Shown here piece by piece: positions 6,203-18,276 of a DNA stretch of 64,000 bases. The translations under genes and the position numbers were made by a program. Source of the DNA: Methylococcales bacterium (lineage in GTDB: Bacteria > Pseudomonadota > Gammaproteobacteria > Methylococcales > Methylomonadaceae); contig JAQTMV010000002.1 of assembly GCA_028714175.1 (NCBI GenBank), positions 1 through 64,000 on the forward strand. Reading direction: 5' to 3'. The notes beneath the pieces are model-generated. The model was not told where the DNA came from. It ran no database searches and was given only the letters and a program-made list of their open reading frames with translations. Within the stretch, counting starts at the first letter, position 1, and every line of letters starts with the position of its first letter.

Positions 6203-8068
6203 ATGAATGAACAGATACTAGAAAGACCAAAAACAGTGAATAACGAACATTGGCAACAGGCATCCAGATGTCCGATGCATGCCCAATCCACAGAGCAAAC
6301 CCTGCTGAGGGCCGAAGATGAGCTGTTTCTTCCTATGCATAAGCGCGTGATTACCCAGTATTCAACTAATGAGTCTGGTGTCACCGAACTGCATCTTTAC
6401 TACGAAGACAAGGAGATTTCCTTTGACGAGCCGGAGCTTTTTGCGTTTGGTGAACGCTTGGGGCAACAATCCCGTTTTGTAGCTGAAACCGCTACAACTT
6501 GGGGCGATGGCTATAGTTGGCCGCGCATCAAAGAACTTCTTGAGCATCTTATTGAAGAAGGCATATTGCATCTTGCGGATACATCCGAATCCGCCTCTAG
6601 TCCAGGCGAAACCCGCCAGATCAGCCCACCTCCAGCGCAAAGCAAAGAGCCTCGCACCTGGTTTGATTGCGAAGCGATCATTGCTGAATTAACAGGGCGT
6701 CCTCTGGAAATGGGTTATCTGGAATTAGTGGTTCCGATTTTTAGAGTCGCCCATATTGCTCTGGACATGGAAGGCCGACAAGTTGGCGAAGCCAATGTTT
6801 TCCCAGATCGGCTCCGCCTGGATATTCCGACCGAGTGGAGTGCCTGCCCATTCCCAGGCAGTCGTTACCAGAACGAACGGCCAATGAATGTAACTGCACT
6901 AAAAAGCATGAAGAAGCATTGGTCACAAACCATGGCCGTCCTGACAAAAATTAGAGAAGCTTATTTACGCAGATTTCCCGATGCCCGGCAAGGCTTGACA
7001 GTTGGCCATTTAGAGTGCCTGTCCACGTTGGTATTAGCGCTACCTGCCTACCTGCTTATGCGTTCGGAAAATAAAGTAAATAACGGCAGTCTTCATCCCG
7101 TGCTGTCAAACATGTTCCGAGTTACGGATGGCGTGCGTATGACGACGCATCAAATGCTGATCGTACCCGCTGCAGAAGCTACATTGTCTCCCGACACACC
7201 CATCACCAGTAGCGAAATATATCAGTACGCTGAACGCAATTATGTCTTTCAGTCGGCTCATGGGGTTTGTGCAGGGCCAAAAGCAATGATAGAAGAGTTC
7301 TTGGCTGTACTTGTAGATGGCAAGCCTGTTGAGGATATGGCCTCAGTAAAATTTGATCCTGAGGTACAGGACGCTTTGGATGCTATTGAACCCGCTTTAG
7401 ATTATGGTCTATATGGCTTACGGGTTTATGTCATTGTATTGTCCTTCTGGACATTAATGAGCCGAACTTATGAACAACTCTGGAAAATTTTAGAATCTTG
7501 GCCGGAAAGAGGCTCGGTAATGCTGAACGAATTTAAGCAAATTATCCAGATTGATGTAAAAAACCTGCAAGCCGATACCCTTTTAGCCACTGAAGATTTG
7601 CGGTCAAACCGTGACCATGTCCAAGCCGGCATGTTTGAGAAAACATCTCGAGGACTTAAGCTTCCGTTCGCGGAAGAAACATTATCACAGCGAATAGCTC
7701 CTGTGCCGGCAACCCACCACGCAACTGCTGAAAAAGTACTCCGTTCTGCTTTAAGTCAATGTTTTGGCAAAAAGATTGCTGACGATGATCCAACTTTCAA
7801 TCGCTTGATTGGCTGCTTGATAAATTACTTTCGCAGCGAACAAGCCATTGTAAAAGCAGCTTGTGAAGCTCAAGGTTTTATTAATCGCCAACTTGGCAGA
7901 CCAGCACCTGAACGCGATTTCACCGCGGCGGATATTAATCTTTATAGCCTGTTGATCGGTGATGTTAAGAGATTACCCCTCTTAAGTGAGTTATTTTATG
8001 AGGTATTTAACCTCCAAGTAGTTGTAACGCAGAACAATATTGAAATATCAGATCGGATTGCCGGTTAA
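6203..8068 (+). CDS. Unrecognised 621-aa protein, first gene of peptide cluster
   Basis: The start is set at ATG 6203 because CGGAG lies 8 nt upstream; an in-frame ATG at 6170 lacks such a site. It has no signal peptide or membrane segment, so it should act in the cytoplasm. Residues about 63-126 (from LHLYYEDKEISF to EEGILHLAD) have the strand and helix spacing of a small PqqD-like winged-helix recognition domain, but this is a weak pattern match. The rest is mainly helical with scattered His, Glu and Cys (CPMH near residue 24, a Phe-Arg-Val/Asp-Gly-Val-Arg-Met stretch about 310-330). I find no radical SAM, YcaO, ATP-grasp or LanB/LanC motif. Its place before the peptide gene makes a peptide-modifying or peptide-binding role plausible. 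Confidence 0.85.
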   Translation: MNEQILERPKTVNNEHWQQASRCPMHAQSTEQTLLRAEDELFLPMHKRVITQYSTNESGVTELHLYYEDKEISFDEPELFAFGERLGQQSRFVAETATTWGDGYSWPRIKELLEHLIEEGILHLADTSESASSPGETRQISPPPAQSKEPRTWFDCEAIIAELTGRPLEMGYLELVVPIFRVAHIALDMEGRQVGEANVFPDRLRLDIPTEWSACPFPGSRYQNERPMNVTALKSMKKHWSQTMAVLTKIREAYLRRFPDARQGLTVGHLECLSTLVLALPAYLLMRSENKVNNGSLHPVLSNMFRVTDGVRMTTHQMLIVPAAEATLSPDTPITSSEIYQYAERNYVFQSAHGVCAGPKAMIEEFLAVLVDGKPVEDMASVKFDPEVQDALDAIEPALDYGLYGLRVYVIVLSFWTLMSRTYEQLWKILESWPERGSVMLNEFKQIIQIDVKNLQADTLLATEDLRSNRDHVQAGMFEKTSRGLKLPFAEETLSQRIAPVPATHHATAEKVLRSALSQCFGKKIADDDPTFNRLIGCLINYFRSEQAIVKAACEAQGFINRQLGRPAPERDFTAADINLYSLLIGDVKRLPLLSELFYEVFNLQVVVTQNNIEISDRIAG

Positions 8069-8149
8069 ATCGGCAACCGTTGTCCGAATCTGCCAGCATG
8101 GGGTTGGCAAATCAACGTGCGATGGGCACGGACATAACAGGAGAATACC

Positions 8150-8233
8150 ATGAAAGTAAAATCCAATATACGTGCTGGCTTGCAGGCAAAATTGGTTTCA
8201 GGCGGTTTCTGTCGCGGCCCAGTAATAGCTTAA
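8150..8233 (+). CDS. Candidate RiPP precursor peptide, 27 aa
   Basis: Too short for standard gene calling. AGGAG is 8 nt before the ATG, a strong ribosome-binding site. The first 19 residues are basic and amphipathic and end in LVSGG. The remaining residues are FCRGPVIA. The Gly-Gly is the classic cleavage site for C39 peptidases, and the exporter encoded 3.7 kb downstream has an intact C39 domain, so an 8-residue core released after GG is the natural prediction. A transcription hairpin follows directly. It is not a methanobactin precursor: the core does not have that Cys pattern and no mbnB or mbnC is present. Confidence 0.7.
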   Translation: MKVKSNIRAGLQAKLVSGGFCRGPVIA

Positions 8234-8252: not shown

Positions 8253-8286
8253 ATGAGAGGGATGATGAGTTCCCTCTCATTTTAAA
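8253..8286 (+). terminator. Hairpin terminator or attenuator after the precursor gene
   Basis: Perfect 10-bp inverted repeat ATGAGAGGGA (8253-8262) and TCCCTCTCAT (8271-8280), with an 8-nt loop and a T-rich tail. It lies between the peptide gene and the di-haem enzyme gene. Partial termination there would give more precursor mRNA than downstream mRNA, which is common in bacteriocin and RiPP operons. Confidence 0.75.
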
Positions 8287-8407: not shown

Positions 8408-10648
8408 ATGAAACAGAGTTTTATTAGCGATGAACCGCAAAACACAGAAACGACAATACCTACAGCACGTCGTCACCGGCATGAAGAAAAAAATAATCCT
8501 ACAGGGCGATTTTTTGCTTCGGTTACTTATGTTATGGCAGTTAGCGGCCTTTTGTTAACGACTCAAGCGTCAGCAAACACCACGCCAATCTATAACCCCT
8601 CTCAAGCACGATTATTCGGCTTAGACTCATTACGCAGTGCAGTAATACAGAACGGCGGCGTGCCATTGCCGAAAAATCTGGATCATTACATCAAAAATCG
8701 TGAGGCTGCCTTGCAGCTAGGTAAAGCATTATTTTGGGATATGCAAATTGGTAGCGATGGCGTACAGTCCTGCGCCAGCTGCCATTTTCATGCGGGAACC
8801 GATGATCGTGTCAAAAACCAGATTAATCCGGGTTTGCTGGCTATTTTCGACCGCCCAGAAGACGCCATTAAAGGCTACTTTAATGCCACAGGTGTTTTCA
8901 AGCCTGTTTTCGAAAGCAGGCAACCTAATCAATCTCTTAAACGCAAAGATTTTCCTTTTGTTAAGACAATTCAGAAGGTAGAGCACGCGGCAGATGGTTC
9001 GATTGCGCCGATCTCCGGCAACAGTAATGATATAGTAGGCACCATGGGTATGCTGTTTACATTTTATAATAACGTGGTTCCAGGTTTTGCCATCGATTCA
9101 GGATCGCCAGTTAAGGACCCAATCTGGAATATCAACGGAAAATACAATGTGCGCCGGTCTGTAGCAAGAAACGCCCCGTCAGTAATCAACGCCGTTTTCA
9201 ATTTAACAAATTTTTGGGATGGAAGGGCGAATCCTCATTTTAATGGGCAAGATACCTTCGGAGACCAAAGTCCAAACGGCGGCGTTGTTGTTCATCAGCC
9301 AGGACAGCCTTTAAGCTTTGAACCAATCACAATGGACAGCGCCAGTTTGGCATCTCAAGCCCTTGCTCCAATTGTTAGCTTCTCTGAAATGTCTTTTGGC
9401 GATCCTTCCCAAAGATCCGTAACCGATCCATCCCAGCCCAATGGACGTAGTATTTCTGAGATCGGCAAGAAAATGTTAGCAGCATCAACGCAGACCGGGG
9501 TGCCATTAACTCCGCTGGGTTTACAAACAGTTCACCCCGAGGATTCGGTGCTAGGCAGTTTATCCAAAGCGCCTTACCGTGGATTGAATACGACCTATGA
9601 AACGCTTGTCAAAACCGCTTTTGCAGAACAATACTGGAATTCTGATGAAGCTATTGAGACACCTGGCATTGTATTCAACCAAATGGAGTTCAACTTCGGC
9701 CTGTTTTTTGGACTCTCTGTAGCTCTCTACGAATCGACTTTGGTAGCAGACCAATCTTATTTCGACCAATGGATGGAAACGGGTCGCTTCAATAGCGGCT
9801 TTGGTAACAAGGAATTAGCAGGATTAAACCTGTTCGTCAACGAAGGCCAATGCCTAAAATGCCACGCCGGCCCTGAACTAACCAAGGCATCAGTAAGAGC
9901 CGCTCAAGAGAATAAAAATCTAATACGGGCGATGGCAATGACAGAGGGCAGCGCGCTCTACGATAATGGTTTTTACAATATATCGGTTACGCCCACTACG
10001 GATGATATTGGCAGGGGCGCTGCGGATGCTTTTGGCAATCCACTCTCTTTTGCTCGTCAAGCGCTATTCTCCCGAATGGGACAAAAAACTATTCCTTTCC
10101 CCATCCTTGGCGACCAATTCATCCCTGCCAAAAATGAGAATACCGGAAATCCGGTCTGCACGGATGCAAACAGTAATGGATTTTGCGAATCAAGCGAAGC
10201 TATCCTTCCTGAATTCCAGAGAGTTGCTGCGGATGGCGCCTTCAAGACACCCGGATTGCGAAATAGCGCTCTGACCGGACCTTATTTCCATAACGGCGGC
10301 ATAGCTACTTTAAGACAAGTAGTGCAGTTCTATAATCGCGGAGGAAATTTCTGTAGCTTTAATCTTAAGGATTTGGATCCAGGCATCAAACCCCTTGGCT
10401 TGTCCGATGAACAAGAAGAAGAACTGGTCTCCTTTTTGATATCTTTGACCGATGATAGAGTTGTCTATCAAAAAGCCCCTTTTGATCATCCGGAACTAAA
10501 GATACCATCAGATGGACGCGATACTGCCGGTACTCGCAGGATAAAGGAGGTAGGCGCGTATGGATCAGATCGCCCTTTGGGAACTTTTCTCAACCTGAAT
10601 CCCAACGATGCCATCTATACTCCTTCCGGAATCTGTTTCACAGAGTAA
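8408..10648 (+). CDS. Di-haem MauG/cytochrome c peroxidase-like enzyme
   Basis: 746 aa, about twice the usual di-haem peroxidase. After a long N-region there is a hydrophobic segment ending in TTQASA (residues about 35-56), so it should be exported. Two c-type haem sites are visible: CASCH at 122-126 and CLKCH at 482-486. The C-terminal block FKTPGLRNSAL, GPYFHNGG and QFYNRGG is the standard family signature. The extra length lies mainly between the two haem sites. MauG and MbnH in this superfamily oxidise peptide or protein side chains. Position directly after the precursor suggests oxidation of the peptide in the periplasm, but the predicted core has no Trp or Tyr. AGGAG precedes the ATG. 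Confidence 0.88.
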   Translation: MKQSFISDEPQNTETTIPTARRHRHEEKNNPTGRFFASVTYVMAVSGLLLTTQASANTTPIYNPSQARLFGLDSLRSAVIQNGGVPLPKNLDHYIKNREAALQLGKALFWDMQIGSDGVQSCASCHFHAGTDDRVKNQINPGLLAIFDRPEDAIKGYFNATGVFKPVFESRQPNQSLKRKDFPFVKTIQKVEHAADGSIAPISGNSNDIVGTMGMLFTFYNNVVPGFAIDSGSPVKDPIWNINGKYNVRRSVARNAPSVINAVFNLTNFWDGRANPHFNGQDTFGDQSPNGGVVVHQPGQPLSFEPITMDSASLASQALAPIVSFSEMSFGDPSQRSVTDPSQPNGRSISEIGKKMLAASTQTGVPLTPLGLQTVHPEDSVLGSLSKAPYRGLNTTYETLVKTAFAEQYWNSDEAIETPGIVFNQMEFNFGLFFGLSVALYESTLVADQSYFDQWMETGRFNSGFGNKELAGLNLFVNEGQCLKCHAGPELTKASVRAAQENKNLIRAMAMTEGSALYDNGFYNISVTPTTDDIGRGAADAFGNPLSFARQALFSRMGQKTIPFPILGDQFIPAKNENTGNPVCTDANSNGFCESSEAILPEFQRVAADGAFKTPGLRNSALTGPYFHNGGIATLRQVVQFYNRGGNFCSFNLKDLDPGIKPLGLSDEQEEELVSFLISLTDDRVVYQKAPFDHPELKIPSDGRDTAGTRRIKEVGAYGSDRPLGTFLNLNPNDAIYTPSGICFTE

Positions 10649-10742
10649 TCCTGACTAATAAATATAGGTTCGGAAGTCCACAATTTGCTTGTTAAGTGAG
10701 TGATGAGACTATATCTTATTGATTATACTAACATTAAAATGT

Positions 10743-10756
10743 TGGACAGTTGTCCA
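10743..10756. promoter_or_regulatory. 14-bp palindrome before the exporter genes
   Basis: TGGACA (10743-10748) and TGTCCA (10751-10756) form a perfect inverted repeat with a 2-nt centre. It is 13 nt before the proposed TTG start of the HlyD gene and just before its ribosome-binding site. It could be an operator for a second promoter or an RNA hairpin that affects translation. The evidence is only the symmetry and position. Confidence 0.3.
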
Positions 10757-10769
10757 GGGAGATTATTTC

Positions 10770-11963
10770 TTGCCTGCTTCATTTTCTCGTACAACTCGAT
10801 CGCTAGCCAATGACACGTCCAGGTATGCTGTTTTCGCCTGGTTAATTGCGGGATTAATCCTGACCGGATGGTTGGCCTGGTTTTTCTTTGCCAAGATAAC
10901 CGTGTACGAGGTTTCCACCAACGCGCGCCTTGAAGTCGATCAATCCGCTCATCCTATTGCCGTATCGGTGGCGAGCAAGATTGTTTCCACCTCATTATCA
11001 TTGGGGCAAGAAGTTCAGGCGAGTGATGTTTTGGTTGAACTCGATGCGAGCAGCGAAAAGCTGCGTTTGCACGAAGAAGAGTCACGATTGCAGGCTTTAC
11101 CCCCCCAGATTGTCTCCATACAAAAGCAGATTGCCGCACTGGAGCAAGCCAAATCCGAGGATCATCAAGCTTTGCTTACGGTAGCCCAGAGCGCTCGATC
11201 GCGGCATAAGGAAGCTGTCGCTGCCGCAGAATTTGCCAAAGACCATGAGCGCCGCCTGACCAAAATGATGAGCTCTGGAGCTATTCCACTTATTGAAGCG
11301 TTACGCGCCAAAGCAGAATTACAAAAGTTGAGTTCTGCCAGGGATGCGCTGTTCCTGGATATTCATCGCTCAGAGTTGGATGCCAGGACGCGTTTAAATC
11401 AGGAGCAGGCAGAAATTGAAAATCTCAAACGCGAGGCCGCCAGATTGAATGGCGAACTGGAAACAACCCGAAGGACTATTGCCAGGCTTAAACAGGACAT
11501 CGAAAAACATCTGATTCGAGCTCCGGTAGCGGGGCAAATCGGCGACGTAGTGCCGCTGCAAGTGGGCGCTTATGTCGCGGCGGGTGAAAAACTAGGAAAA
11601 GTGGTACCGCATGGTGAACTCAGAATCGTTGCTGATTTTTACCCCGCATCAGTGCTGGGAAAAATTCATCCGGGACAACTCAGCCGTATGCGCCTGGACG
11701 GTTTCCCCTGGGCTGAATATGGGACGATTCAAGCCAGAGTAAGCCGGGTCGGCGCTGAAATCAGAGATAACCTGGTGCGGGTAGAGTTCATGCCAGAACT
11801 GTCTTCCGAATCGCCTATTATTATGCAACACGGCCTGCCTGGCTCTATCGAGGTGAGCGTGGAACAGCTTGCTCCCGCAGTGATGATCTTGCGTGCAGCG
11901 GGTCAGTTAATGTTTGGCTCCAGGGAACAGCTTAGTCCTCCGACCGAAGCCAAACGCTTATGA
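10770..11963 (+). CDS. HlyD-family membrane fusion protein
   Basis: About 397 aa from the proposed TTG start, chosen because AGGGAG lies just before it; the frame opens earlier at 10719 without a good site. One membrane segment near the N-terminus (FAWLIAGLILTGWLAWFF) is followed by a lipoyl-like half motif, a long coiled coil, the second lipoyl half (HLIRAPVAGQIG) and a beta-barrel region. This is the periplasmic adaptor that joins an inner-membrane ABC exporter to a TolC-type channel. It overlaps the next gene by 4 nt (ATGA), indicating one operon. Confidence 0.93.
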   Translation: MPASFSRTTRSLANDTSRYAVFAWLIAGLILTGWLAWFFFAKITVYEVSTNARLEVDQSAHPIAVSVASKIVSTSLSLGQEVQASDVLVELDASSEKLRLHEEESRLQALPPQIVSIQKQIAALEQAKSEDHQALLTVAQSARSRHKEAVAAAEFAKDHERRLTKMMSSGAIPLIEALRAKAELQKLSSARDALFLDIHRSELDARTRLNQEQAEIENLKREAARLNGELETTRRTIARLKQDIEKHLIRAPVAGQIGDVVPLQVGAYVAAGEKLGKVVPHGELRIVADFYPASVLGKIHPGQLSRMRLDGFPWAEYGTIQARVSRVGAEIRDNLVRVEFMPELSSESPIIMQHGLPGSIEVSVEQLAPAVMILRAAGQLMFGSREQLSPPTEAKRL

Positions 11964-14683
11964 GCAATATCAGGACTACTGCAAAACAGCGTTGGCTAGT
12001 GCCTGAGGTCGTCCAGACATCAGCCATGGATTGCGGCCCCGCCTCTTTAAAATGCCTGCTCGAAGGTTTTAATGTACCTATTAGTTATGGCCGTCTTCGC
12101 GAAGCCTGTCAAACCGATGTGGATGGCACTTCAATCGATATGCTTGAGGTAGTCGCCAACCAGTTAGGTGTTGAAGCCGAGCAGGTTATGATTCCTGTTG
12201 ATCATGTATTGTTGCCTGAAGCAGACGTCTTACCGGCCATGGTGGTTGTGCGTCATGCGGATGGGGCGACTCATTTTGTGGTGATCTGGCGACGGCATGG
12301 TTCCTGGTTACAAGTGATGGACCCGGCAATTGGCAGGCGCTGGGTGAATTGTCAGCGTGTTACCGAAGAAATTTATCGCCATGTATTACCCGTACCCGCT
12401 ATCGACTGGCGAGACTGGGCGGCTACGAATGAGTTTCTGAAGCCGTTACGCCAACGCTTGTCTTTGCTGGGAGCGACCAAGAATAACACAACAATATTGA
12501 TAGATCATGCGCTTAAGGACCCTGGCTGGTTGGCATTGGCAAAGCTGGATGCCAGTGTCCGATTGGTTAATTCTATTGTGGAAGCTGACGGCATCAAATC
12601 TGGCAAGCATGCTGTCAAACTAGTGCGGACGCTGCTGGAACAAGCAGGTAATAAGTCAGACGAACTCTTTAAAACGATTCCAAAATCTTATTGGTCAGTG
12701 ACACCTCAAAAACCCGAGGGTGCTAGTGAAGAACAACTTCTATTTAAGGGTGCGGTTTTATTACAGATAAGAGGAAAAAAATCCGGAATAATCAAGGAAG
12801 AAAGTGATAAAGAAGAGCCGCTGTCGCTTGAACTTGCAGCCGCACTCAACGAAAAGCCCTTACATCCGGGAAAGACACTGCTGGATTTACTCAAAAACGA
12901 TGGCCTGTTATCACCTGTTGCGCTCATAGGAGCGCTATCCATTTCCGTAGGTGCGGTGTTAATTGAAACTCTGCTGTTCAGGGGGATTTTTGATATTTCC
13001 TGGGAACTGAATCTGACCAGCCAAAGATTGGGGGCAGTACTTGGCCTGATTTCTTTCGTCGCTTTGCTTTTGTTAATTGAAATTCCTATCGCAATGGAAT
13101 CGCTGCGTTACGGGCGGCACCTTGAAATACGTCTGCGTATGGCTTTATTGCGAAAACTTCCTAATTTGACGGATCGCTATTTTCAGAGTCGACCAGTTTC
13201 AGACATGGCCGAACGCAGCCACAGTATCCATTTGACCAGACTGGTTCCCGGTTTAGGCATCCAATTTATACAAACGATATGGGATATCACGTTCACTCTG
13301 GCCGGAATCATGCTCATCGATTCAGCCAGCAGTGTTTTAGCCCTTATTATTGCCGCACTGGCGGTTGGCCTTCCATTGTTCGCTCAACCTCTACTTAACG
13401 AAATGGATTTGCGGGTACGTAGTCATTCGGGTGCGTTGTTTACTTTTTACCTGGATGCTCTACTGGGCCTTGTTCCCATCCGGACGCATAGGGCTGAGCA
13501 AGCCGTTAGCCGCGAACATGAAGGATTATTGGTGGAATGGGCGCGATCAAGCCGGAGCCTGATCCGTATTTCATTATTCACCGAAGGCTTGCAATCTTTA
13601 ATCTGTGTTGGATTTGTTGGCTTGATGCTGTTTCAGCATTTTTTGCGTTCAGGCGGGGTCACGGGTGGTGATCTGTTGTTGGTTTATTGGGCATTGAAGT
13701 TACCAGCTCTCGGTCAAAGACTGACAGCACTGGCGCATCAATATCCTGCGCAACGGAATATTCTGCTCCGGCTGCTAGAACCGCTTTCGGCTCCAGAGGA
13801 AATCCATGATCCTGCACATAATGAGATCATCAAAGCAAGTACCAAGAGCGCCTGCGGCGTTGGCATAGCAATTGACAGTGGTAGCGTGCTGGTGTCTGGA
13901 CATACTATCTTGCAGGATATTGATCTCATTATTTCCCCAGGAGAACACGTCGCTATCGTTGGTCCCTCGGGGGCCGGCAAATCCAGTTTGGTAGGTTTAT
14001 TGCTCGGGTGGCATCGGCTGGCTACCGGACAATTGCTGGTCGATGGTATGACTTTGAACGGAGCAAACCAGCAATCCTTGCGTCAGGAAACGGCGTGGGT
14101 TGACCCTGCCATCCAAATCTGGAACCGTTCGTTTCTGGATAATCTCAACTACAGTTCCAGTGAAAATGGTTTCGATAAAATGGCTGGTGCTATTGATTCG
14201 GCTGCTCTGCGTGGCGTATTAGAGAAATTGCCATCAGGTTTGCAAACCTACCTGGGTGAAAGCGGCGCATTGCTTTCTGGCGGAGAAGGACAAAGGATGC
14301 GACTGGGCCGTGCCTTGCTGCAAACCAATGTTCGTCTTGCCTTGCTGGATGAACCTTTCCGCGGAATGGATCGCAGTCAACGTCACCAGTTACTGACCGA
14401 TGCACGGCAATGGTGGCAAGATGCAACACTGCTTTGTGTCACCCATGATGTAAGCGAAACGTTAGCATTTAATCGCGTTTTAGTTGTTGAAAACGGACGC
14501 ATCATCGAAGATGGTTCCCCCGGTCAATTGGCCAAGAGCCAATCCCGTTACCGGGACTTGCTAGATGCCGAAGAAGTGGTGCGCCAGGACCTGTGGAAGG
14601 GAGATCAATGGCGTCGCATCCATATCCAGGAAGGATGTATTAACACTACCCATACGGACACAGTGAATGAACAAGGATATTAG
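11960..14683 (+). CDS. C39-peptidase ABC exporter (NHLM/bacteriocin type)
   Basis: A 907-aa three-part exporter. An N-terminal C39 peptidase domain has an intact triad with Gln19 in the oxyanion hole, Cys25 (DCGPAS), His105 (THFVV) and Asp121 (MDPAIG). The membrane domain spans roughly residues 310-590. The ATPase domain has Walker A GPSGAGKSS (about 668), signature LLSGGEGQ, Walker B LALLDEP (about 794) and the VTHD switch His. An unusual charged linker of about 170 residues separates peptidase and membrane parts. The enzyme should cleave a leader after Gly-Gly and export the rest. The 27-aa peptide upstream offers exactly such a site. Confidence 0.93.
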   Translation: MSNIRTTAKQRWLVPEVVQTSAMDCGPASLKCLLEGFNVPISYGRLREACQTDVDGTSIDMLEVVANQLGVEAEQVMIPVDHVLLPEADVLPAMVVVRHADGATHFVVIWRRHGSWLQVMDPAIGRRWVNCQRVTEEIYRHVLPVPAIDWRDWAATNEFLKPLRQRLSLLGATKNNTTILIDHALKDPGWLALAKLDASVRLVNSIVEADGIKSGKHAVKLVRTLLEQAGNKSDELFKTIPKSYWSVTPQKPEGASEEQLLFKGAVLLQIRGKKSGIIKEESDKEEPLSLELAAALNEKPLHPGKTLLDLLKNDGLLSPVALIGALSISVGAVLIETLLFRGIFDISWELNLTSQRLGAVLGLISFVALLLLIEIPIAMESLRYGRHLEIRLRMALLRKLPNLTDRYFQSRPVSDMAERSHSIHLTRLVPGLGIQFIQTIWDITFTLAGIMLIDSASSVLALIIAALAVGLPLFAQPLLNEMDLRVRSHSGALFTFYLDALLGLVPIRTHRAEQAVSREHEGLLVEWARSSRSLIRISLFTEGLQSLICVGFVGLMLFQHFLRSGGVTGGDLLLVYWALKLPALGQRLTALAHQYPAQRNILLRLLEPLSAPEEIHDPAHNEIIKASTKSACGVGIAIDSGSVLVSGHTILQDIDLIISPGEHVAIVGPSGAGKSSLVGLLLGWHRLATGQLLVDGMTLNGANQQSLRQETAWVDPAIQIWNRSFLDNLNYSSSENGFDKMAGAIDSAALRGVLEKLPSGLQTYLGESGALLSGGEGQRMRLGRALLQTNVRLALLDEPFRGMDRSQRHQLLTDARQWWQDATLLCVTHDVSETLAFNRVLVVENGRIIEDGSPGQLAKSQSRYRDLLDAEEVVRQDLWKGDQWRRIHIQEGCINTTHTDTVNEQGY

Positions 14684-14684
14684 T

Positions 14685-16802
14685 ATGTTGGCCTGGCCTC
14701 TTTCGAGGCTGGGAGAAAGTATCGAAGAACTTGCGCGTCATGCACACCTGAATCCGGCAACCCGGGAAAGTCTTATTGCTGCTGAACCCTTGAAACCGCA
14801 AGATATGGCTGATCTTGATCGCTGGATCGAATGGGCTGGTGATAGATTAGGCATTGAAGCTGAACCCATCGAAACATCAGTATCTGAATCCGGGCAACTT
14901 CTTCGCAATTCGGGACCTGCCTTGCTGAAGCTGGGTGATGGTCAAGATGTTCGGTTTTTGTTATTACTCAAGTCAAAATCCGGTATGTTACAACTGATCG
15001 GCCCAGACCTGTGCGTACACAGATGTCCGGCTGAAGTCATGCGCGCGGCACTGTGTGAACCCTACGAAGCGCCGGTTACCGCCGAGATAGATCGCTTACT
15101 GGTGATTGCCGGCGTACCCGGGCGGCGGCGGCAACATGTAAGAGCGGTCATGCTCCGTGAGCGTCTCGCTACTCAGCGCATAAGTGGCTGCTGGATCCAG
15201 CGTCTGCCACCTACATCAGGATTTTGGCGGCAGCTGGCACAGGCTCATTTGCCTCGGCGGGTGGTTCTTATGTTAAGCGTATTCACACTGGTTTATGGAT
15301 TGGAAATAGCGGGTTGGAGTTTGATTGGACACGCTGCTTTAAACGGACGGCTGGATTTGGGCTGGCTTACTGCCTGGGCTTTATTGGTATTATCACTTAT
15401 TCCGCTACATTTACTGGGAAGCTGGTTAGACTCCACTTTTGCGCTGGATATGGGCAGAATTCTTAAAAAGCGGCTTTTGGCCGGCGCCTTACGAATGGAT
15501 ACTGAATCAGTCAGACATCAGGGTGCCGGCCGATTGCTCGGGCGGGTTATGGAATCCCAGGCACTTGAGTCATTAGCGCTGAACGGTGGTTTTGCTGTTA
15601 TTATCGCGGTCATCGAATTGATCTTTGCCGGTGTTATTTTGGCTGCTGGAGCAGGAGGTCAACTGCATTTACTCCTGTTGCTAGGCTGGTTAACGCTGAC
15701 TATGGGATTAAGCTGGCGTTATTTTCAGCGCTTGCGAAAGTGGACGTTTATGCGCCTTGATATGACACATGAGCTGGTCGAACGCATGGTCGGACATAAA
15801 ACTCGTCTGGCTCAGGAACCGGCAAATCGCCGAAACGCGCAGGAAGATCAGGTTATTAAAAAGTATCTGAACATGTCTAAGGAATTAGATGACGCCATTG
15901 TGCCGATCACTGGCGGATTAGCGCGCGGCTGGATGATAATTGGCTTGACGGGGTTAGCACCTGCTTTTGTTTCCGGTACCGGCGATGCAACCGGATTGGC
16001 AATTGGCTTGGGCGGACTATTGCTCGCCAGCAGAGCGCTTTCTGGCGTATCCGGCGGCTTGGCGGCATTGGCCAGGGCTGGTATCGCCTGGACTCAGGTT
16101 TCAGCATTATTTTACTCAGCCAACAAAAAACTTTCCCAAGAACCCTTTATAACGTCCTCCCAGATGGCAGGGATGGGTTCCAATGGCTCAGCAACGAAAT
16201 TAATTGATGCCAGCGATTTGGTGTTTCGTTATCGGCCACAAGGTGATCCAGTCCTAAGTGGTGTTGATTTATCCATTTATAAAGGCGAGCGAATTCTGCT
16301 TGAAGGCTCATCCGGCGGTGGAAAATCGACACTTGCGTCTTTGTTGGTGGGTCTTCGAACACCTGATTCCGGCTTATTGCTTTTGAATGGACTGGATAGA
16401 CATACATTAGGTGCAAGCTGGCATCGACTGGCAACACAAGCGCCTCAATTTCACGAGAACCATATTCTGACTGGCACTCTGGCATTTAACCTGCTGATGG
16501 GACGTAATTGGCCTGCTTCACAGGAGGATCTTCAAGCAGCTGAAGAATTCTGCGCAGACTTGGGGTTAGGAGATTTGCTGGAACGGATGCCGTCAGGAAT
16601 GATGCAGATGGTGGGCGAAACAGGCTGGCAACTCTCTCATGGCGAACGTAGCCGTATCTTTCTGGCGAGGGCATTACTGCAAAATGCACAATTGACTATC
16701 CTGGATGAAAGCTTCGCTGCACTAGACCCGGAAACACTGGAGAAATGTTTAAATTGTGCGTTTAAACGTGCGCAAACTTTACTGGTTATTGCGCATCCTT
16801 AA
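14685..16802 (+). CDS. Second ABC exporter with degenerate N-terminal domain
   Basis: About 705 aa. The ATG at 14685 directly follows the stop of the preceding gene and has AAGGA before it; an overlapping ATG at 14667 is possible. The N-terminal 190 residues resemble a peptidase-like domain without catalytic Cys or His (a VRFLLLLKSKSG strand pattern survives). The membrane domain follows, then an ATPase domain with Walker A GSSGGGKST, a variant signature QLSHGERS and Walker B TILDESF. The pairing of a C39 exporter with a non-cleaving partner is the arrangement of NHLM-type peptide exporters, which probably act as a heterodimer. Confidence 0.88.
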   Translation: MLAWPLSRLGESIEELARHAHLNPATRESLIAAEPLKPQDMADLDRWIEWAGDRLGIEAEPIETSVSESGQLLRNSGPALLKLGDGQDVRFLLLLKSKSGMLQLIGPDLCVHRCPAEVMRAALCEPYEAPVTAEIDRLLVIAGVPGRRRQHVRAVMLRERLATQRISGCWIQRLPPTSGFWRQLAQAHLPRRVVLMLSVFTLVYGLEIAGWSLIGHAALNGRLDLGWLTAWALLVLSLIPLHLLGSWLDSTFALDMGRILKKRLLAGALRMDTESVRHQGAGRLLGRVMESQALESLALNGGFAVIIAVIELIFAGVILAAGAGGQLHLLLLLGWLTLTMGLSWRYFQRLRKWTFMRLDMTHELVERMVGHKTRLAQEPANRRNAQEDQVIKKYLNMSKELDDAIVPITGGLARGWMIIGLTGLAPAFVSGTGDATGLAIGLGGLLLASRALSGVSGGLAALARAGIAWTQVSALFYSANKKLSQEPFITSSQMAGMGSNGSATKLIDASDLVFRYRPQGDPVLSGVDLSIYKGERILLEGSSGGGKSTLASLLVGLRTPDSGLLLLNGLDRHTLGASWHRLATQAPQFHENHILTGTLAFNLLMGRNWPASQEDLQAAEEFCADLGLGDLLERMPSGMMQMVGETGWQLSHGERSRIFLARALLQNAQLTILDESFAALDPETLEKCLNCAFKRAQTLLVIAHP

Positions 16803-16827: not shown

Positions 16828-18276
16828 ATGAATAAACTTTTTATTTTAGCGCTATCGGCGCTAATCGCCGGATGCTTCAAGATCGGCCCGGATTATATCC
16901 GTCCTCAGATCGATACACCCAGGCAATGGCGCTTTGCGGAGAGCAATGTCCGTCAAAATGCCACCAACCTGAAGTGGTGGGAACAGTTAGGTGATCCTGT
17001 CCTGAATCAGCTGGTAGGTCAGGCGGTGCAAGGAAACCTGGATCTGAAAATAGCTATTGCCAATGTCGAGCAGTTTATGGGGCAGTATGGTTCAACTCGC
17101 GCCAATCTGTTTCCCCAGATTTTCGGAACAGGTAATTATGCACATGATCAGCCCAGCAGTGGCGGAGGCGATGTTTTGAACAGCGGAGCAAACAATGACG
17201 AAGTTGACTTTGCCCGACTGGGAGTCACAATGAACTGGGAACTGGATGTCTGGGGTCAACTGCGCCGAGCCAACGAAGCTGCTCGCGCTGACCTGCTCAG
17301 ACAGGAAGCTATCAAACGGGCAGTGATTCTGACCCTGGTCAGTCAGGTTGCGCAAACGTATATCACGCTACGCGAGTTGGACAAAAATCTGAAGATCACG
17401 AAAAACATTGTTAAAAGTCTCGAAGAGGAAATGCGCATCGCTAAAATTCGTTTTGATGGAGGTTACAGCTCCAAACTGGAACTTCAGCAGGTCAACTCCG
17501 AATACCAACGACGCAGGGCCTTTATTCCCTTATATGAGCAACAAATAGCACAAACGGAAAATGCGTTGAGCGTTTTGCTAGGGCGAAACCCGGGTACCAT
17601 TCCACGTGGCCTTTCGTTTGATGAACTCCGTCTTCCCGCCGTACCGGCCGGCTTGCCTTCCGACCTGCTCGCCCAACGTCCCGACATTCAGCAGGCAGAG
17701 CAGGAATTGATTGCTGCCAATGCAAGAATCGGCGTAGCTCGCGCTCAATATTTCCCGAAAATTTCGCTAACTGGCGATGTGGGACAGATAAGTACTCAAG
17801 TGGCGACGCTTTTTGTTCCAGGCGCTAATTTCTGGAGCGTAGGCTCGGCTCTGCTCACGCCGATTTTTACCGCAGGCAAGATCGCGGGACAAGTGCAGTC
17901 TGCTGAAGCAGTGCAGAAAGCGGCTGTGGCGAATTACCAGCGGTCTATCCTCTCCGGCTTTCGTGAATTCGAGAATGCGCTTGTGAGCAGTAACAAAACC
18001 AAAGTACAAAAGGAGAGACAAAGCGAGCGAGTTGCCGCAGTGCAAAGCTATTTCAACTTGTCTCGCATTCGTTATGATGGAGGCTATACCGATTACCTTA
18101 CGGTGCTCGATTCGATCCGGCAGTTGTTCGACGCGCAAATTGATCTCATCCAGGCACAAAGCGCCAACCTTACCGCGATGATCGGTTTATACCGCGCCAT
18201 AGGTGGCGGCTGGATAGTTGAGGAGGAGAAAGCGGCTAATTTGCCCAAGCCAAACGATGCAGCGTTTCTCTTTTAG
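16828..18276 (+). CDS. NodT-family outer-membrane efflux lipoprotein (TolC-like)
   Basis: 482 aa. The lipoprotein signal ends in LIAGC (lipidated Cys near residue 16), and GPDYIRP is the family's usual start. Two repeated outer-membrane efflux (OEP) domains follow, with the second copy starting around AQRPDIQQAEQEL. It forms the outer-membrane channel for the HlyD and ABC genes directly upstream, from which it is separated by only 25 nt. Together they complete a cell-envelope-spanning export machine for the peptide product. No terminator is seen after it; IS-derived sequence begins 10 nt beyond the stop. Confidence 0.93.
   Translation: MNKLFILALSALIAGCFKIGPDYIRPQIDTPRQWRFAESNVRQNATNLKWWEQLGDPVLNQLVGQAVQGNLDLKIAIANVEQFMGQYGSTRANLFPQIFGTGNYAHDQPSSGGGDVLNSGANNDEVDFARLGVTMNWELDVWGQLRRANEAARADLLRQEAIKRAVILTLVSQVAQTYITLRELDKNLKITKNIVKSLEEEMRIAKIRFDGGYSSKLELQQVNSEYQRRRAFIPLYEQQIAQTENALSVLLGRNPGTIPRGLSFDELRLPAVPAGLPSDLLAQRPDIQQAEQELIAANARIGVARAQYFPKISLTGDVGQISTQVATLFVPGANFWSVGSALLTPIFTAGKIAGQVQSAEAVQKAAVANYQRSILSGFREFENALVSSNKTKVQKERQSERVAAVQSYFNLSRIRYDGGYTDYLTVLDSIRQLFDAQIDLIQAQSANLTAMIGLYRAIGGGWIVEEEKAANLPKPNDAAFLF

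Follow-up and report, generated by a model that had tools for sequence, protein, structure and literature searches.

Can an open reading frame (ORF) of only 27 codons be a genuine peptide gene and, if so, which of the enzymes encoded around it would act on its product? The question is raised by positions 8150-8233 of a 64,000-nucleotide stretch of a Methylococcales bacterium genome (contig JAQTMV010000002.1; hereafter the window), where the gene order is 620-amino acid enzyme, short ORF, di-haem enzyme, HlyD-type adaptor, C39 peptidase-ABC exporter, second ABC exporter subunit and outer-membrane protein. An earlier note had read the ORF as a precursor with a 19-residue leader and an 8-residue core, FCRGPVIA, and had suggested a small redox- or metal-active product. 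The ORF and its nearest surroundings hold the following features:

8150..8233, + strand: precursor peptide gene, ATG start, 27 amino acids, MKVKSNIRAGLQAKLVSGGFCRGPVIA
8150..8233, + strand: predicted division of the precursor into leader MKVKSNIRAG and core LQAKLVSGGFCRGPVIA
8150..8179, + strand: conserved leader, codons 1-10 (MKVKSNIRAG), whose pattern fits 25/25 precursors
8180..8230, + strand: predicted core of 17 residues, which includes the Cys-Arg motif, placed by the conserved AG/GG
8139..8143, + strand: ribosome-binding site AGGAG, six bases 5' of the precursor ATG
8253..8280, strand unassigned: terminator-like hairpin of 10 pairs with T-runs, between the precursor and the di-haem gene

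The ORF is real and coding. Its frame is intact in the closest relative, Methyloglobulus morosus (L030), where 12 of the 27 aligned codons are identical, 9 differ synonymously and 6 non-synonymously, with differences distributed 5/2/13 over codon positions 1/2/3 (binomial P 0.0037); such a synonymous bias in relatives was the check that the earlier note had proposed. Of 20 homologous loci, 18 hold similar ORFs, 25 short precursors altogether; the remaining two (L038 and L039), which have none, are on contigs that end within the enzyme gene or immediately past it. The good ribosome-binding site and the hairpin after the ORF, to which the note had also pointed, were both confirmed: AGG, GGA or GAG lies within -16 to -4 of the start in 24 of the 25 precursors, and the hairpin begins about 20 nt past the stop codon; a hairpin is likewise present in Methyloglobulus. 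A promoter scan found 9 candidates against 7.9 expected, and Pfam and NCBIfam scans of the precursors returned nothing useful.

The hallmark of the precursor family is the 620-amino acid protein, by which its distribution was traced. Among 61 genomes (the window's own and relatives), this query gave full-length matches in its own genome and three others (54-55% identity) and two partial matches in a fifth, and scanning a single genome for each species turned up 19 loci, 40-79% identical to it; L032, L035 and L047 are common to both searches, and the 19 named loci plus the window make 20 distinct loci. The hosts include Methyloglobulus morosus, Methylomonas koyamae, other Methylococcaceae, Steroidobacter gossypii, Rhodoferax lacus and a Nitrospira, as well as genomes labelled Ramlibacter, Rubrivivax, Roseateles, Phenylobacterium, Xanthobacteraceae and others. 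The family is rare, since only 2 of 398 phylum-sampled genomes match its profile (the window's own and one partial match), and a tblastn search of plasmids gave one partial match, in Burkholderia arboris. The literature and families searched, with subscription journals largely outside coverage, contain no description of it. The RRE-Finder papers (PMC12710340, PMC7470986) report many unannotated RRE fusions, so the protein may sit unnamed in those data sets; precursors this short could also be easily overlooked by gene callers.

What the precursors share is their beginning. The pattern M[KQ][VI][KQ][ST]x[VIL][RKQ][AG]G fits all 25, with Gly at residue 10 throughout and Ala at residue 9 in 24 (Gly in one, the RGG of L031), and comparison of all pairs of leaders counts 1115 synonymous versus 708 non-synonymous codon differences. 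In seven genomes selected for holding such loci the pattern has 11 matches, with none for the reversed control. The remainder of the peptide is more varied: Cys is present in 23 precursors, exactly one Cys in 22, and Arg adjoins Cys in 22, while Trp is absent from all 25 and Tyr occurs in 11 cores, that of the window having none. Two C-terminal types are common, namely a Ser-rich stretch followed by VSRC[AVL]GI, and short tails such as FCRGPVIA, GGRCGA, GGRCSGGIVLA, SRCSGVIYYA and GVCPVVLA; poly-Gly tails follow GGRCS at L042 (11878-12036) and L044 (11958-12134). The Cys-less precursors (L032a and L035b, plus the Methyloglobulus orphan L076) resemble a third kind. These paralogues with the same leader lie at L076 1501, L035 9691 and L032 8926, and two of them are His/Arg-rich. 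At L037 (9301-10596) and L048 (7245-8435) a gene with a methyltransferase domain lies 3' of the precursor.

A looser version of the leader pattern matched 7 of 369 class-sampled genomes (control 0), four of them apparently by chance; these four (G230, G298, G330 and G390) were dropped from the family, and G092 and G388 were kept apart from it because the 20-kb stretches concerned lack an enzyme homologue. In G092 (L024, 9359-10551), six tandem mini-ORFs of the form MKVKTD[VI][HKR]AG, with tails of 4-18 residues, have P-type ATPase-like genes on one side and a gene for an O-methyltransferase on the other, and the 20 kb hold neither a homologue of the 620-amino acid protein nor a C39 exporter. 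In G388 (L025, 9870-10291), two MKVQTGIKAG peptides with Pro/His-containing tails lie roughly 3 kb away from a gene for a subtilase, and these 20 kb too lack a related enzyme.

Where the precursor would be cut depends on the export genes, which are as follows:

10719..11963, + strand: HlyD-type adaptor (family models, locus comparison)
11960..14683, + strand: C39 peptidase-ABC exporter (family models; catalytic residues aligned)
14667..16802, + strand: second ABC exporter subunit (family models, locus comparison)
16828..18276, + strand: outer-membrane efflux protein of NodT type (family models)

The C39-ABC gene adjoins the precursor locus in 15 of 20 cases (14 of the 19 named loci and the window). 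It is encoded elsewhere in the genome in Methyloglobulus (73% identity) and M. koyamae (64-65%), no C39 gene was found for L032 and L048, which gave partial ATPase-region matches only, and L039, also without an adjoining copy, is cut by the contig end. Among the 19 named loci, six have a match to an outer-membrane efflux protein (L034, L036, L040, L042, L043 and L044). Q19, C25, H105 and D121 of the C39 domain are invariant in 11 of 11 aligned proteins; judged from these residues the domain looks active. That the precursor is accompanied by a C39 exporter whose catalytic residues are all in place speaks for the earlier note.

The division into 19 and 8 residues proposed in the earlier note fares less well. 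The VSGG before FCRGPVIA is indeed present in the window; its GG is not conserved, however, since the closest relative has VTKG, and no more than 7 of 25 precursors have a GG at most two residues away from the Cys. What stays constant is instead residues 1-10, which end in AG or GG: all 25 precursors combine V, I or L at -4 with AG (24) or GG (one) at -2/-1, and this is the only double-glycine-like site common to all of them. On this basis the leader is predicted to span ten residues and the core 17. An 8-residue product is therefore probably not right on comparison of the precursors. Cleavage after VSGG, possibly following a first cut at RAG, would suit the Val at -4 and the Ala at -7, and the seven precursors with a GG near the Cys include both Steroidobacter peptides, Methylomonas and one Nitrospira; we nevertheless regard it as very unlikely, considering that -12 of this site is Arg, that -4 is not hydrophobic in several other precursors, and that GG at this position is absent from 18 of 25. 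Some role for the GG near the Cys is possible from its recurrence. The preferred reading, cleavage after Gly10, has a main weakness of its own. PMC10885120 describes the C39 substrate motif as a leader ending in GG, GA or GS with hydrophobic residues at -4, -7 and -12, and the AG end of these precursors lies outside that list; a GG/GA/GS site with all three hydrophobic positions occurs in none of the 25. The recognition motif described there spans 12-15 residues, more than the ten of this leader, which raises the question of whether C39 domains process so short a leader.

The candidate for modifying the peptide is the enzyme encoded immediately upstream:

6203..8068, + strand: RRE-fused enzyme gene, about 621 amino acids, start taken at 6203
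6293-6583, + strand: RRE-like domain (AlphaFold2 models, fold comparison)
6587-8065, + strand: helical core domain (AlphaFold2 models, fold comparison)

No Pfam or NCBIfam family scored above cutoff for this protein, and the best hit of its family profile among PDB sequences was unrelated (E 0.12). Its AlphaFold2 model, built with 20 homologues (mean pLDDT 80.8), predicts strands at residues 49-54, 60-66 and 69-73 followed by helices at 76-85, 93-98 and 105-117, with a short strand (90-92) separating the first two helices. Foldseek gave high probability for the N-terminal part only (the MINA53 winged helix 1.00, McbBCD 0.98). With VIA-align, residues ~30-126 matched MINA53 (Z 9.9), NO66 (up to 7.9), ThcOx (7.4), McbB with bound substrate (7.4), the PbtF RRE (6.5), the TbiB1 RRE (6.5) and heterocyclase 4v1u (6.3); most RRE matches thus fall below Z 8, and the JmjC winged helices score equally or higher. 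PMC12710340 defines the RRE by its order of strands and helices and also describes RRE-like folds joined to JmjC domains; this explains the MINA53 match. The N-terminal domain is accordingly predicted from the models to be RRE-like, that is, of the kind that binds RiPP leaders.

The remainder of the protein gave no convincing match in the fold searches. Modelled alone, the core domain is predicted with confidence (pLDDT 88.2, pTM 0.90), and against solved structures the best Foldseek probability among the rows shown was 0.14 and the best VIA Z-score 4.2, an absence that is not proof. Distant relatives of this domain that have no RRE were found in G011 and G462. With the two from G011 included in the alignment, there is no change at D187, G190, R191, G194, E195, N228, Y341, E343 or C355, a pattern suggestive of an active site. 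These two (L011, 2573-3826 and 14712-15986) are located near genes for a Haem_oxygenas_2 iron-containing redox enzyme, a Rieske oxygenase and a vanadium chloroperoxidase-like protein. At L033, L034 and L040, loci without a di-haem gene, the enzyme gene has ORFs beside it that resemble sensor kinases on visual inspection, and at L034 also a response-regulator-like ORF, judged in the same way. It is conceivable that the peptide is exported unmodified by the C39 protein as a signal or a metal-binding molecule, and that the 620-amino acid protein is a winged-helix chaperone or regulator that binds it. The core domain indeed matched neither a known fold nor a catalytic family in the libraries searched, and His/Arg-rich Cys-less paralogues do occur, but the invariance of polar D187, R191, E195, Y341, E343 and C355 even in the two RRE-less relatives fits an active site, and the di-haem enzyme is tied to one clade; we consider an unmodified peptide improbable and favour an enzymatic role for the core domain.

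The di-haem enzyme itself is encoded just downstream of the precursor:

8408..10648, + strand: di-haem c-type enzyme of the MauG/peroxidase superfamily with two CxxCH motifs (sequence, alignment, family models)

Its Tyr642 (codon 10331-10333) aligns with MauG Tyr294, a ligand of one haem in MauG, and is kept in 7 of 7 di-haem proteins; peroxidases have Met at this position. A c-type haem and a hydrophobic N-terminus together suggest a periplasmic location. The protein scores well below the cutoffs of the MauG model TIGR03791 (74.5 vs 443.85 bits) and the MbnH model TIGR04039 (110.4 vs 362.85 bits), and no MbnP partner was found among the 10 neighbour proteins scanned. The gene is present at seven of the 20 loci, window included, and in the tree of 620-amino acid proteins these seven lie on one side of a single branch (91/91), so that its presence requires one change, a value as low as which none of 500 shuffles reached. 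Trp and Tyr are the usual targets of MauG. It is possible, and we take the prospect seriously while leaning the other way, that the enzyme acts on a protein partner and that its linkage to the peptide is incidental: the core in the window has neither Trp nor Tyr, and 13 of 20 loci have no di-haem gene nearby. Against this, all seven loci of one clade show the linkage, and this clade also has its own core type and RNA element. The adjoining di-haem enzyme fits a redox step; a redox- or metal-active small compound as the product is unproven.

The RNA element in question lies between the enzyme gene and the precursor, directly 5' of the Shine-Dalgarno site, and consists of two hairpins in tandem:

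8092..8108, + strand: hairpin 1, 6 pairs, loop AUGGG, with a covarying stem in 17 aligned elements
8116..8130, + strand: hairpin 2, CGTGC-GATGG-GCACG, second of the conserved tandem

Across the 17 elements, 95.2% of cells pair, compared with 22-40% when the alignment is slid, and 8 cells are changed on both sides, which none of 500 shuffles equalled. Two other controls are weak: further standard pair types were reached by 287 of 500 shuffles and are not significant, and both-side-changed pairs by 26 of 500. The first copy at L036 folds no better than its shuffles (z 0.65). The two hairpins together were not apparent by eye at L032, L035, L037, L045 and L048; these five loci were left out of the alignment, and the tandem hairpin thus covers 13 of the 18 precursor-bearing loci. 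A covariance model derived from the 17 elements also finds an element at L038, outside the alignment and 32 nt past the enzyme match (E 4.7e-4; next non-member 0.044). In the 61 genomes it is strong only at the window site (2.3e-11) and in G037 (3.5e-9), both of which belong to its training set, and the next hit is at 0.0018. Rfam 15 gave no match over 8092-8130 at E up to 5.

Within the di-haem clade, ACGTGCGATGGGCACGG (8115-8131, 17 nt) is invariant in 9 of 9 elements, while hairpin 1 varies with compensation. An invariant 17-mer with palindromic arms would suit a DNA operator as well; the covariation of the stems and the position of the element directly before the Shine-Dalgarno site argue for RNA, and we consider an operator unlikely. 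Three other candidates were set aside. A second conserved leader ORF across the hairpins is broken in frame by one-base length differences between loci. CsrA-type sites were rejected since the CsrA motif is GGA and the loops read AUGGG. Finally, a repeated element does not agree with a hairpin core that occurs once in its own genome and a 17-mer that is found in only one of 398 genomes, its own.

All of these observations suggest a pathway in which the tandem hairpin, as an RNA element, would control expression of the precursor. The RRE-like domain of the 620-amino acid protein could then bind the ten-residue leader, MKVKSNIRAG, and the fused helical domain would modify the core, with the Cys/Arg motif or its surroundings as the likeliest site. 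Cleavage after Ala9-Gly10 and export of the 17-residue core would fall to the C39 exporter and, in the di-haem clade, a periplasmic MauG-type enzyme may add an oxidation. That the ORF is the precursor of an RRE-dependent RiPP-like family with a pathway of this kind seems to us probable, and the interpretation in the earlier note is, as a whole, partly supported. A bolder claim, that the system represents a new RiPP class (an RRE joined to an enzyme of unseen fold that modifies Cys-Arg, C39 cleavage of a ten-residue strand-like leader, MauG-type oxidation and tandem-hairpin RNA control), is put forward tentatively, as a possibility on which we would not yet rely. The pathway would be compact, with one enzyme and one 27-amino acid substrate, and its main domain has no recognized relative among solved structures. 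It would also bring a short peptide together with an enzyme of the MauG type; if the di-haem enzyme does oxidize a core devoid of Trp and Tyr, this would be new chemistry for the MauG-type superfamily.

How the system relates to those already known can be considered in turn. With MauG, MbnH and BthA it shares the two CxxCH motifs and the Tyr at the MauG Tyr294 position, and differs in the size of the di-haem protein (746 amino acids, versus 373 for MauG chains) and in having a peptide gene as neighbour. With methanobactin it shares a short precursor and a methanotroph host (as relatives suggest), and a di-haem gene is present in some methanobactin clusters according to PMC3621798; it differs in its C39 export and in that no MbnB (MNIO)- or MbnC-type match was found among the 10 neighbours scanned. 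The export genes repeat the NHLP/proteusin combination of C39-ABC, second ABC and HlyD proteins (TIGR03796, TIGR03797, TIGR03794), TIGR03796 being the best NCBIfam match of the C39-ABC protein, but all three fall below the cutoffs (173.5 vs 853.3, 107.3 vs 709.4 and 38.8 vs 156.2 bits, respectively) and the precursor has no nitrile-hydratase-like leader. By the models tested, therefore, the system is not a member of the NHLP, MauG, MbnH or methanobactin groups; it works like a C39-exported RiPP while failing part of the C39 leader definition. We file it as RRE-dependent RiPP-like, an assignment based on predicted structure and gene context, not chemistry. It differs from the RRE-dependent RiPPs represented by ThcOx, McbB, PbtF and TbiB1 in a leader of only ten residues and in a fused domain that, in the libraries searched, matched none of the common RiPP enzymes. 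What it has in common with them is an RRE-like winged helix, N-terminal and fused as in ThcOx and McbB, and an adjoining short precursor, encoded locally with a conserved leader.
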